In this document: positions 14,115-20,301 of the stretch, in pieces | Layout of the letters: each line of letters begins with the position of its first letter | How positions within the stretch are numbered: the first letter of the stretch is position 1 | DNA from: Adineta ricciae | Lineage: Eukaryota; Rotifera; Eurotatoria; Adinetida; Adinetidae | NCBI GenBank assembly: GCA_905250025.1 | Contig: CAJNOJ010000135.1 | Span: forward strand, 186,001 to 250,000 | Length of the DNA: 64,000 nt | Direction of reading: 5' to 3' | Notes under the pieces: generated by a model | Told to the model about the DNA's origin: nothing | Databases searched by the model: none | What the model saw: the letters and a program-made list of their open reading frames with translations, nothing else | Program-made: the position numbers and the translations under genes

Positions 14115-17100
14115 TTAGTCTTTAACACCAGTTTTTGCAACTCCAAAGAACTTTTCCAGTCTGAAACATAACAAACCAATTCAACCAATTACATCCTAAA
14201 AACTATGCTGCATATTCACCTCGATAACTTTTTATTCTTCTTAGTTGAAGGCGTATGCTCATCATTGTTAATCCTTTCATAACTCTAAACAGATAATAAA
14301 TAATCTCGTTCTCAGTGTCAAATGAAAATACATACCCCACTTTTCTTTCCAATTTTGTGTGCACCTTTTTGGTTCTTCTGGCTTGAAGATCCATTGTCTC
14401 TAACAGGCGCTCGCCGATCGTCGCTTGATCCAAAGTTTCTTAATTTTTCCATTGAATATCTTTGATCAGACTTCTGATTTTCTATGACAAAATATCTTCA
14501 CAAATACATATGAGAAACAAGAGAAATCTTACTTGGCAATACACGTCCTTCGGCTTTGATAGGCGTTTTCTCTGAACGATCCTGACTTCTTGATCGTCTC
14601 TGATCATTTTCGTCTGGTGCAGAATCAGTACTGCATGAACGACGTAGCAACGGAGCTTTGCCATGTGCTCTTTGATTAACTTGTCCATCGTTAGATAGAC
14701 CATTTGCTATACGTGTCTGCTTGTGATCGATCTTTTCATAAGAAGCTTCGCCATATGGTGACCGAGGACCTAAAGGTAAAATAAAGATTTTCATATCGAT
14801 TGAACCATAGATTTGTCTATCCGTGCAATTCACTTCGTCGTGCTCTCTGATCGTTATTCGGAGTGCATTGGGCTTGCAAAACAATATCTCGGCGCGAAAA
14901 TCCGTTCTGTGCTTGTTCTTTCATATTATTTGGATTTCGTTGACAAGCTCGCTTTAAAATGAAAACAGGAAAGTGAAGAGAACTACGATAATGGACATCA
15001 AGTTACTTGATGTAGTTGAAGTTGTCTAGCAGAAAATGATTGGTCACAATATTCACATGGAAGTCCTTCGTTGATCGGTTCAGCATTCATCGATCTACAA
15101 ATAAACATAACATTACGATTAGTTCCTATCATTGACGAAAAGCATACCGAGCGCGGTTCTTGATTCGTTCGTTGTCTCGTTCTCGGCAGCTTCGCTTCAA
15201 TAGATAGATCATTAGCACGAACGAAAAAAAAGAATGAAATAATCTTACCACATGATTCGACCAATTCGGTAGATCGATAGATGCATTGCATATTTCACAC
15301 GGAATACGAGCAATGCTATCCGAAGGAGTACGATTCTGATTTGCTGGTCTCCGAAGACAATTATTCTATCAAAAATATTCTTCACAATAGATCAAAACTG
15401 TTGTTCGAAATACAATTTAACCTTATGTCGTTCATAGTCATTTTGTGGACATGATTGCTGACAATATTCACATCTTATGATCGGCTGACTGCGTCCTACA
15501 AGAGAAATATCATTTAAGACTATAGAAGGAAATGAAAAAGGTACCTTTGTTCGATCTTACTGATCGAACGCTTGGTTCTGGATTAACAGGTGAACGTTGT
15601 GCTATTTGAAGTCGACGTTGATTTGGAGGTGTTTCGATACTACTCACAAGAGCACAGTTGTTTTGATAATGATAAGCGGAATGTGAACGTCGTATGAATT
15701 GTCGACACTTTGGACACTCGTCAGTTTTATTTCCACATAAGATGAGATGTTCTCGCAATGCATTGGATGTTGGAAAAGTTTCTTCACAAAAAGAACATTC
15801 GACGGATCGATTTCGACAATTGGTTTGCTAAAGAGTAAAAAAAAATGAATGAAGAATGAGTAGGTAGAAGAAAGATGTACTTGATGTTGTTGGAGATCTC
15901 TGTCATTGGTACATTGATGTCCACAATCACAAGCATAGATCGATTGTTGTCTTGAGAGTGTAGTCGTCAGAGTGGGTTGATGAAAACTGTCATAAGTGGT
16001 TGAAATACTGCGAGCTTTTAGAGTTCTTGAAGATGAAGCCAAATTATTCAACCTGTCAGTGCTAAAATGAGAAGAAAAAGCGTAGGATGAAATCTTATGT
16101 TCCTTTGACGCAGAATCGGTTACAATCCCGCCGAATTTTTGTGCTTGAGCAGCCGGATCGAACGAGTTATTTTGAAGGCTGATGAATCCTTTCATTTATC
16201 TAATTCTGAAGACCCTTGAGAGAACTCATGATAAGCTGAAGCATATTGACATACTACAGTCAAATAATTATATAATGACCATACTGGAGAACAATGAAAG
16301 ATATAATAATGAATCACCGAAAATTTACGGATGGGTATTATATCCCACAAAAATTAGCTATGTATCGAATAGACATATAATGGCTTCGGATATTCGCGAT
16401 GTATATTTAATAGTAGGCTAAATGACTTAGATTATAGTATTATTGTTATAAATCCACGTAGGAATATATCTTCGAAATGCAAATGAGAAATGTTAGAGCA
16501 CTTACTTGACTTGTTTAGCAACATCCAAGCTTGATAAAGACCGTTTTAATCTTTGAAAGTTTGGTCGATCTTCTGGACTTTGCTGCCAGCAGTCGTTCAT
16601 AAGAGTCCACAGTTGATCGTTGCATCTCGATGGTCGTGATAATTTTGTACCACTTAACTTTATTCTTCGAACTTCATTTTCATCATCTATCGATGAATAT
16701 GGTATTTCACCATATGAACAAGCTTCCCACATGAAAATACCCATCGAATAAACATCAGACTGCACGGATAAAGTTGGTTGTGTTACATTTTGTAGCACTT
16801 CTGGAGCTGTATATCGTATCGGAACCATCGATATGACGGAACTAGTTGGTGCGCCAACCATCGAATATAATGAACTACCTCTTGTCAAACCAAAGTCGGT
16901 TAGTTTAACTAAGTTTTCATCTGGTTTAGAGTGGTTATACTCAAAAACGAGAACATTTCGACACGCTAAATCACCGTGTACAATACCATTATCAGCAAGA
17001 CATACCATCGCATCACAAATCTGTTCGAATATTCTCCATAAAACTCTTTCTGTAGGTTTAAATCCATTTTCACGTAGCAATTCGCAGAGGTCACCATGTG

Positions 17101-17581
17101 GCGCACATTCTTGAAGTAACATAACTGAATTGGGATTACTTTGAACAAAACCAAATGTTCGAACAACATGCGGATGACAACTCAATTTAACATAAAAAGA
17201 AGCCTCTCGCTTCGCTTTTGCTCCATCTATTTTGAGAAGAATAATCGGTGGTCCTTTTCTATTGACCCATTCGACCTCATAAATAAATTTCCCAAAACCT
17301 TGGAATAATGGTCTTGCTTTTGTCCTTCTTATATCTATATCAAGACGATATTCGCATTGAGGTTGTGATCCTTGTGAAGCAATTTTCAATTCCTCCATCA
17401 TTTTCTTGACTGTGTAATTTGTTCGCAGAGAATTTATGTTCATTGGCTGTTGAGTCATTGGACTTGTTCCACTCCTTTCTAACCATTCAGTGATCGCTTT
17501 GCGTTCATATGTATGACCATCATCGCCTGTCACCGGATCCTCAAATATTTCCCCTGTGATCGGGCACACGCATGAATCCAT
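14115..17581 (-). CDS. Gene B: U-box + protein kinase + six XAF1/TRAFD1-like zinc fingers
   Basis: The start ATG at 17581 opens exon 1 (359 codons). Residues about 5-50 are a canonical U-box (CPITGEIFEDPVTGDDGHTY then ERKAITEWLE), the E2-binding fold of ubiquitin ligases. Residues about 80-345 are a kinase domain with LLKIDG (Lys117), HGDLACRNVLV (HGD at 202-204), DFG at 229-231, RYTAPEV and DVYSMGIFMWEA. Exon 1 ends at a GTAAGTG donor. A ~325 nt intron (16501-16177) leads in frame to FDPAAQAQKFGG. Short exons then give fingers CDCGHQC, CSFCEETF, CPKCRQFI, CEYCQQSC, CEICNASI and CEYCDQSF, each with the trailing His and Cys of the XAF1/TRAFD1 type. The tail is basic and ends at TAA 14115-14117. 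It probably combines ubiquitin ligation and phosphorylation; substrates are unknown. A separate finger-only gene starting after the long intron is the alternative, but the frame continuity argues for one gene. Confidence 0.78.
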
Positions 17582-18389
17582 CTCAAAGTTGGAAATTATA
17601 CTTCCTACCACACAAGACACAAGAGTAAAAATGAAGAAAACTTTGCGATAAAGTCTGAGTGTTTTTGTCCTATTCTTTACTTATTTTCGACAGAATTTTC
17701 TTACCTTTTGAAAGATATCTCTACTTACAGAAGAGAACCATTAAAGATGTTTATAAGTCACTGCATTATATCGTTCTGCAGCGACAAATGACTAATACTC
17801 TTCTATAATATATACATCAGTATTCGATAAAACCGGAGTAAACATGAACATTCCAACGATAGAATATCTTTTCTCCTTATTATATCACTAAATACAAATT
17901 TATTTTCACACCTAAATAAACAACTAGTCAACACTTTGCTTCTCAGGCAATTCTTTGTCAATTACAAAAACATCGAATATCTTTCTTTGTACTTTTTACA
18001 AGGAAATCTACGATGTACAATAATCTCGAGTGATGATTAGCAAGGATACAACTTGTTCATCACGTACACACACATCGAACACATTCAGAAGTAATCACTC
18101 ATATGATTCGCGTAGGTACTTTTTTTCTCTTGAATTTATTATGAAATTAATTGTTTACAAAATGGGAAAAGTGTTACATATTTATCATATATATGAAATT
18201 CAATTGATGGAAAAAATAAACATTGTACAATGCGAAAAAATAAACAAAAAAAGACAATTCGATCACAGTCTTTATTTTTATCAGCGATACAAAAAATATC
18301 AATGCATAATATGTTTATTTCGGACAAGTCGTAACAGAAATCAAATATAATGGAAGTATTCTTCCATTTAAACCACTTTTCAAACTGTT
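17582..18389. other. Intergenic between genes B and C
   Basis: About 0.8 kb of AT-rich sequence contains the gene B upstream region and the gene C 3' flank. No motif-bearing frame is visible; the plus-strand frame at 18030-18350 is low-complexity Ile/Tyr/Lys. Confidence 0.4.
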
Positions 18390-20301
18390 TTAGTCTTCAA
18401 CACCAGTTGTGGCACATCCAAAGAATTCTTTTATTCTGAAACATAGCAAATCAATTCAAACAGTTGCATCCTAAAAACCATGCGTAATATTCACCTCGAT
18501 GGCTTTTTATTCTTCTTAGTGAAACGCGTATGCTCATCATTGTTAATCACCTGATAACTCTAAACAGATAACAAATAATCTCGTTCTCAGTGTCAAATGA
18601 AAATACATACCCCACTTTTCTTTCCAATTTTGTGTGCACCTTTTTGGTTCTTCTGGCTTGAAGATCGATTGTCTATAACAGGCACTCGTCGATCGTCGTT
18701 TGGTCCAAATTTTCTTAAATTTTCCATTGAAGATCTTCGATCAGACTTCTGATTTTCTATGACAAAATATCTTCACAAAGATATGAGAAACAAGAGAAAT
18801 CTTACTTGGCAATACACATCCTTCTGCTTTTATAGGCGTTTTCTCTGAACGATCCTGACTTCTTGATCGTCTCTGATCATTTTTGTCTGGGACAGAATCA
18901 GTACTGCGTGAACGATGTAGCAACGGAGTTTTATCATGTATTTTTTGATTAACTTGTTCACCGTTAGATAGACCATTCGCTACTCGTGTTTGCTCGTGAT
19001 CGATCTTTTCATAAGGACCTTCATGACATGGTGACCGAGGACCTAAAGGTGAAATAAAGATTTTCATACCGATCGAACCATAGATGTGTCTATCCGTGCA
19101 ACTCACTTGGTCGTGCTCTCCAATCATTACTCGGAGTGTTTTTGACTGGCAGAAGAAAACCTTGACGTGGACGTTCTTTCTGTACTTGTCTTTTCATATT
19201 ATTTGGATTTCGTTGACAAGCTCGCTATGAAATGAAAACAGGGAAGTGAAGAAAACTATGATAATGGACATCAAGTTACTTGATGTAGTTGAAGTTGTCT
19301 AGAAGAAAATAATTGCTCACAATATTCACATGGAAGTCCTTCGTTGATCGGTTCAGCACTCATCGATCTACAAATAAACATAACATTACGATTAGTTCCT
19401 ATCATTGACGAAAAGCATACCGAGCGCGGTTCTTGATTCGTTCGTTCTCTCGTTCTCGACAACTTTGCTTGAATAGATAGATCATTAGTACAAATAATCA
19501 AAATAACCAAAATATCTTACTACATGATTCGACCAATTCGGTAGATCAATCGGTGCATGGCATATTTCACACGGAATATGAACAATACCATTCGAAGGAC
19601 TACGATTTTGATTTGCTGGTCTGCGAAGACAATTATTCTATCGAAAATATTCTTCATAATAGATCAAAACTGTTGTTCGAAATGCAATTTAACCTTATGT
19701 CGTTCATAGTCATTTTGTGCACATGGCTGTTGACAATACTCACATCTTATGATCAGCTGAATGCGTTCTGCTAGAAAAAGTATCGTTTCAAAATCGTAGG
19801 AAAAGTCGAAAGGAGGATACTTCTATTCGAATCTGCCGACTGAGCTCTGTTTTTTTGTCGTGGAGCTTGGTCATCACTGGGAACATCTATCCGTGCAACT
19901 GGTAGATTTGGGTTAACAGGTGAACGTTGTGCTATTTGAAGTCGACGTTGATTTGGAGGTGTTTCGATACTACTCACAAGAGCACAGTTGTTTTGATAAT
20001 GATAAGCGAAATGTGAACGTCGTATGAATTGTCGACACTTTGGACACTCGTCAGTTTTATTTCCACATAAGATGAGATGTTCTCGCAATGCATTGGATGT
20101 TGGAAAAGTTTCTTCACAAAAAGAACACTCGACGGATCGATTTCGACAATTGGTTTGCTAAAGAGTAAACAAAAAAAGAATGGAGAATGAGTAGGTAGAA
20201 GAAAGATGTACTTGATGTTGTTGGAGATCTCTGTCATTGGCACATTCATGTCCACAGTCACAAGCATAGATCGATTGTTGTCTTGAGAGTGTAGTCGACA
20301 T
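18390..20301 (-). CDS. Gene C: zinc-finger-only partial tandem duplicate of gene B
   Basis: Gene C corresponds exon for exon to the finger part of gene B. The ATG at 20301-20299 starts MSTTLSRQQSIYACDCGHEC, and homology to gene B stops within a couple of bases of this start codon. The next exon (near 20159-19830) carries CSFCEETF or its equivalent, LREHLILCGNKTDECPKC and RQFIRRSHFAYHYQNNC. Later exons give CEYCQQPC, CEICHAPI and CEYCEQLF, then a Lys/Ser/Arg-rich tail ending at TAA 18390-18392. No U-box or kinase is present. All finger cysteines and histidines that I checked are retained and the splice sites match gene B, so it is probably expressed, perhaps as a finger-only competitor or adaptor (inference). 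The exon near 19900 differs in length from gene B. Confidence 0.68.

Follow-up and report, generated by a model that had tools for sequence, protein, structure and literature searches.

The question raised by this locus of the bdelloid rotifer Adineta ricciae is whether one gene encodes a U-box, a protein kinase and a series of zinc fingers, or whether two neighbouring genes have been read together. The window, which is the whole stretch of 64,000 nucleotides that was analysed, corresponds to C135:186001-250000, and the genome scanned for relatives comprises 130 Mb in 1033 contigs. In this study, we found that a gene model of 12 exons, all joined by GT-AG introns, runs on the minus strand from 17581 to 14115 and encodes 864 aa with no internal stop. 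The ATG at 17581 opens an intronless frame (17581-16506) that holds both the U-box and the kinase, and the TAA closing this frame lies at 16504-16502. The Pfam search placed a U-box at residues 5-64 (PF04564, E 8.4e-13, 48.7 bits against a cut-off of 21.4) and a PK_Tyr_Ser-Thr kinase domain at residues 124-349 (PF07714, E 3.4e-50, 171.2 bits against a cut-off of 23.1), and its listing for the window protein contains no SH2 or SH3 domain. Together with the finger count given below, these matches confirmed the original prediction of a canonical U-box, then a kinase, then six C2HC fingers. The best reading is that the locus would be one gene of a family that has expanded in this genome. The features, in window coordinates, are as follows.

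16506-17581, minus strand: exon 1, intronless, with U-box and kinase; donor GTAAGT at 16505 (gene model, splice scores)
17390-17569, minus strand: U-box, residues 5-64 (Pfam)
17212-16535, minus strand: tyrosine-kinase-type domain, Pfam residues 124-349 (Pfam)
16535-17350, minus strand: kinase with its N-lobe from about residue 78
17290-17288, minus strand: kinase K98
17233-17231, minus strand: kinase K117
16978-16970, minus strand: kinase HGD
16897-16889, minus strand: kinase DFG
16179-16505, minus strand: intron 1 as originally predicted, 327 nt
16062-16505, minus strand: intron 1 with the better-scoring acceptor, 444 nt, extending to 16062
15881-16178 (or 16061-15881), minus strand: exon 2, linker and start of finger 1
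15545-15827, minus strand: exon 3, end of finger 1 and fingers 2 and 3
14943-15931, minus strand: six C2HC-type fingers (f1-f6) in exons 2-8
14115-14951, minus strand: exons 8-12, end of finger 6 and a tail rich in Ser, Arg and Lys; TAA at 14117-14115
18388-20301, minus strand: finger-only tandem copy (copy 2), 11 exons

Whether the locus is one gene or two turns on the junction between exon 1 and the fingers. The donor at 16505 (CAA/GTAAGT) scored 10.6, higher than all 20 training donors (4.8-9.8), and the TAA that closes the kinase frame is itself part of this GTAAGT. The acceptor of the original prediction, the AG at 16180-16179, keeps the frame and scored -6.9, lower than all 20 training acceptors (6.1-14.7); as the training introns were taken from two finger copies that nearly duplicate each other, about ten of the 20 are independent. 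The AG at 16063-16062 scored 11.1, keeps the same frame, stays open and gives a protein of 825 aa instead of 864 aa. The donor and the frame of the predicted splice held, and its acceptor is the doubtful part.

The choice of the acceptor at 16062 leaves a coding-like stretch inside the intron, as 16177-16062 scored higher for codon use (+9.4 bits) than all 203 overlapping non-coding segments of similar length that contain no stop. In addition, an in-frame ATG at 16195, just upstream of exon 2, allows a finger-only gene or isoform. Two starts, one for the full-length protein and one for a finger-only isoform, or else two genes, would explain both the coding-like stretch and this ATG. Intron 1, with 327 or 444 nt, greatly exceeds the other ten introns in length (49-64 nt). 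The linker had a probability of 0.09 of being open given its own composition, and its openness alone would be no proof of fusion. An in-frame phase-2 GTAAG donor closes the kinase frame in five of the 14 loci examined out of 30 fetched, related loci that are not independent, and the same context was found at 68 of the 7153 stops in the window. Taken together, the data suggest that reading the window gene as a single polypeptide containing all three parts is both the most economical and the likelier choice, and we infer that this polypeptide would come from a single transcript.

The relatives in the same genome bear on this reading. Exon 1 has at least 97 matches at E up to 1e-5. A U-box and a kinase share one open frame at seven loci, namely in the window, on C147 (two), C11, C602, C281 and C289, and an eighth such frame on C87 has a degenerate kinase. 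Finger-like motifs lie 3' of the kinase on the same strand on C147, C11 and C112, at a second locus of the window's contig (C135b) and on C411; C135b is without a U-box, the C411 locus is broken, and C112 has three kinase exons in a row and one finger. The finger pattern used for the paralogues was loose and gave hits at each of the 16 loci, either on a single strand or on both, and the fingers named here were chosen by eye from their spacing and place. In tblastn with the window fingers, C11 was matched at E 0.007, C217 at E 0.009, and C135b and C411 near E 0.3, while up to E 10 no match was obtained at the intact C147 locus (L039). These weak or absent matches at C11, C135b, C411 and C147 indicate that, at the sequence level, the fingers of the fused genes are weakly homologous to each other.

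In four of the five finger-bearing paralogues, the frame that encodes the first finger lacks an in-frame ATG. At the intact C147 locus, 215 nt separate kinase and finger, and this gap contains a single ATG, which lies 35 nt upstream of the finger and in another frame; a separate finger gene would therefore have no start there. The order seen there by eye was kinase, phase-2 donor GTAAGA, short linker exon, CxCG finger and second finger, and an intron between the His and NNC is common to finger 4 of the window and the second finger of C147 (by eye). It had been stated beforehand that the absence of homologues with the same order would count against the fusion; such homologues were found in the same genome, on C147 and, in less detail, on C11. 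The open model of 12 exons and the recurring order therefore support the predicted three-part fusion in one protein, and the exact junction in the window, with its weak acceptor at 16179 and the ATG at 16195, is the less certain part of the prediction.

A kinase tree of 17 rows, in which C147a was labelled as without fingers, placed the four labelled finger-bearing loci inside one group of eight rows (support 91/96, below the star threshold of the tool), apart from C602, C281 and C289. C147a and the three C112 kinases also fall into this group, so that the tool counts two changes of the finger label, and 0% of the bootstrap trees give one.

Several other arrangements were observed among these relatives. 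The C135b member, at about 5013-3050 of the window on the minus strand, has a kinase and at least three C2HC finger motifs without a U-box, and a phase-2 GTAAGT donor follows its kinase. On C112 (L048, 3940-6539), three family kinase exons with phase-2 donors between them and one finger motif possibly form a triple-kinase protein. In the U-box kinase pair of C289, the frame runs on into a Cys-rich tail (CLEGPCSNQLC...CPMC...), and this tail, in the protein of locus L015, gave no Pfam match. C87:119691-120380 encodes a U-box and a kinase-like domain without HxD and DFG, possibly a U-box pseudokinase, and a finger-like motif precedes this U-box. At C147:97001-107000, a kinase frame with undetermined bases lies beside an inverted finger segment, which may be a palindrome or an assembly fault. 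The whole genome has 57 U-box matches, a count of stretches rather than of genes, and its U-box set is perhaps expanded. A bdelloid spliced-leader sequence gave 0 matches, and a telomere repeat was no more frequent than the same repeat written backwards as a control (38 against 44). Elsewhere in the window, at 23500-21500 on the minus strand, broken open frames resemble by eye a decayed repeat protein.

The tandem finger-only copy in the window (copy 2, 20301-18388) is open over 11 exons, begins with MSTTLSRQQ and has no kinase directly upstream. At the site of its ATG, the finger part of the fused gene (copy 1) has CTG. All finger ligands are kept in both copies, and dN/dS between them was 0.41 in the fingers, 0.99 in the tail and 0.68 overall. 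Copy 2 is taken to be a 5'-truncated duplicate, probably of the fused gene. Fingers 1-3 had 31 matches in the genome, consisting of four in the window copies, 11 strong finger-only homologues (six on C51, two on C273, two on C229 and one on C346; 43-56% identity) and 16 weaker matches (E 7e-4 to 0.1), some of which extend into finger 1. All 11 strong homologues match from finger 2 onward, and among the matches listed no U-box or family kinase lies within 20 kb of them. For three of these homologues, inspection by eye of some 0.9 kb surrounding the 5' end revealed neither a CxCG finger nor a kinase. The opposite history, in which a finger gene was captured by a U-box kinase, is possible.

Regarding the kinase, the best 60 of 1474 PDB matches were all tyrosine kinases, and the domain carries an LAxRN loop and a PIRYxAPE motif. 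The family alignment had 13 rows, some of them near-identical pairs, and as C87 is without the catalytic motifs, 12 kinases were compared. HGD replaces HRD in all 12, the window gene included. At the position of the third P-loop glycine there is Lys in nine and Arg in three (those of C112), and at the putative beta-3 position Lys is found in three of the 12 and R, Q, E or A in the other nine. In two of the C112 kinases, the Asp of DFG is changed to Asn. The window kinase retains K117, E126, D204, N209 and D229 of DFG, where K117 is the putative beta-3 lysine with an uncertainty of two residues, as a gapless alignment puts the beta-3 position two residues earlier. The window member has both lysines, K98 in the glycine loop and K117. 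As the putative beta-3 lysine is replaced in nine of the 12, some family members may be inactive, and perhaps a WNK-like shift of the lysine took place in the family. An AlphaFold2 model made from two window sequences (pLDDT 33.5) was too poor to help.

The dN/dS of the kinase ranged from 0.12 to 0.30 in the five of six pairs that were computable: 0.12 for window and C11 (dS 3.1), 0.27 for window and C602 (dS 1.7), 0.14 for the C147 pair, 0.30 for the C289 pair and 0.20 for C602 and C281. For the pair of window and C147, dS was saturated, and the window pairs overall are near or at saturation. The domain fusion is repeated and constrained in this genome, and both kinase and fingers are under constraint. 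Scans with the family alignment, with two short peptide patterns each, matched four viral loci and one bacterial locus. These matches span residues 109-359 at most and have 24-28% identity. The matched part contains no U-box and thus gives no sign of the fusion, and a horizontal origin was rejected.

The fingers have a regular ligand spacing, with CxC-x12-H-x4-C in finger 1 and CxxC-x11/12-H-x3/4-C in fingers 2-6, and six-residue links join f1 to f2 and f2 to f3. Six fingers were counted, whereas 5000 shuffles of residues 359-700 gave 0.04 on average and 2 at most. The fingers had been assigned to the XAF1/TRAFD1 type, an assignment that is weak, as no curated cut-off was reached. In the window protein, zf-C2H2 was the best Pfam match (E 3e-4) and lay below its cut-off, followed, also below threshold, by zf-TRAF (E 0.029), zf-C2HC_2 (E 0.034) and XAF1_N (E 2); copy 2 gave zf-TRAF at E 0.008 (17.3 bits against a cut-off of 27) and TRAFD1-XIAF1_ZnF at E 0.14. 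Neither PF21366, PF23580 nor zf-TRAF had an above-cut-off match in the fingers of the window protein or copy 2. PF21366 matched 14 places in the whole genome, none above its cut-off and six of them in this finger family. In the PDB, the FLN29 structure 2d9k was matched at E 0.021, after many C2H2 arrays. "TRAF-like" serves here as a working label, which is based on the ligand spacing and the six-residue links and not on established membership.

The UBZ4 fingers, which bind ubiquitin, have an Asp two residues after the His. The UBZ of RAD18 matched the finger profile at E 0.0076, but this Asp was seen by eye in none of the six fingers, and a UBZ reading was rejected.

The domains, their order, the open frames, the recurrence of that order in paralogues and the constraint on kinase and fingers are the observations that an explanation has to cover. 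We consider it somewhat probable that the gene belongs to a family combining a U-box E3, a tyrosine-kinase-type domain and C2HC fingers, in which the fingers would dock a target, the kinase would phosphorylate it and the U-box would ubiquitinate it. The alternative of two neighbouring genes, a U-box kinase ending at the TAA of 16504-16502 and a finger gene starting at the ATG of 16195, with a frame agreement by chance, appears unlikely. It would account for the in-frame ATG, the coding-like stretch at 16177-16062, the poor acceptor at 16179 and the unusual length of intron 1, and it is in line with the open finger-only copy in tandem and with the 11 finger-only homologues that have no listed U-box or family-kinase match within 20 kb. 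However, the stop of the kinase would then lie by coincidence inside a perfect GTAAGT donor that has counterparts in the paralogues, where moreover four of five finger frames are without an ATG. A good frame-keeping acceptor is also available at 16062, and copy 1 has CTG at the very site where copy 2 has its start.

Another alternative is a fused protein with a pseudokinase scaffold, in which catalysis is left to the U-box while the kinase fold and the fingers serve for binding only. The HGD in place of HRD, the replaced third P-loop glycine, the beta-3 replacements in nine of 12 family kinases, the Asn of two C112 kinases and the loss of the catalytic motifs on C87 all point in that direction, but the window kinase itself retains K117, E126, D204, N209 and DFG, and its dN/dS is low, so we regard such a scaffold as quite unlikely. 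An artefact of assembly or a pseudogene is very improbable: although the frame of C147a contains undetermined bases with an inverted finger segment beside it, and although several members of the family are broken, no stop interrupts the 12 exons of the window gene, every finger ligand is kept in copies 1 and 2, and the domain order recurs on other contigs.

Returning to the fused U-box kinase with fingers, a mechanism can be proposed from the domain content. The fingers would dock the protein to a target or a signalling complex, as TRAF-type fingers do, and the kinase could then phosphorylate the docked target or the protein itself. The U-box would recruit a charged E2 and ubiquitinate either the protein that has been docked and phosphorylated or, for turnover, the enzyme itself. 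In members without the beta-3 lysine, the kinase may use the glycine-loop lysine (K98), as WNK kinases do. The protein may be catalytically active and might act in stress or immune signalling, where it could couple phosphorylation to ubiquitination through its fingers. More tentatively, and as a possibility that we would not yet lean on, the family may represent lineage-specific single-chain dual writers. They would have an N-terminal U-box, a non-RD tyrosine-kinase-type domain with a glycine-loop lysine and a C-terminal reader that varies between members (six fingers in the window, two or more in paralogues, the Cys-rich tail on C289), and would select, phosphorylate and ubiquitinate one target, in a genome that is rich in U-box genes.

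Usually, kinase and E3 activities reside in separate proteins and are linked by way of a phosphodegron and a ligase. If the proposal is true, an animal protein that combines both activities with docking fingers in one chain would be a naturally occurring dual writer, on which synthetic ones could be modelled. The family also offers a comparative set, as its members differ in whether they have the beta-3 lysine, the U-box and the fingers, while all of them lack the HRD arginine; the role of each part is thus testable by comparison.

In the open-licence literature, we found no paper recognisable as describing a fusion of U-box, kinase and fingers, and nothing combining bdelloid, U-box and kinase. 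The plant U-box kinases resemble the window gene in having a U-box and a protein kinase in one polypeptide, and plant PUB12 was the best match of the window U-box among solved structures. In the plant proteins the order is kinase before U-box, with a kinase of the RLCK/IRAK type, whereas in the window gene the U-box comes first, the kinase is of the tyrosine-kinase type and fingers follow. PMC8875423 mentions a protein kinase domain among the PUB groups. By sequence, the window U-box is related to those of CHIP and PRP19. To our knowledge, the U-box ligases of the CHIP, PRP19 and UFD2 types have neither a kinase nor fingers. A table in PMC8875423 gives the number of human U-box proteins as 8.

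With the Src, Abl, Tec and EGFR types of kinase, the window kinase shares the PK_Tyr_Ser-Thr match, the LAxRN loop and the PIRYxAPE motif, but it differs from them in HGD for HRD, in Lys for the third P-loop glycine and in the U-box in front. The fingers share the CxxC-x11/12-H-x3/4-C spacing with the TRAFD1 (FLN29), XAF1 and TRAF-type fingers, although all family matches are below the curated cut-offs. As described in PMC4718504, a lysine of beta-2 takes the part of the beta-3 lysine in WNK1. The present family resembles WNK in that nine of 12 members have a lysine in the glycine loop and nine of 12 are without the beta-3 lysine, whereas it belongs to another kinase group, its window member also has a lysine at the putative beta-3 position, and its likeness is read from sequence.
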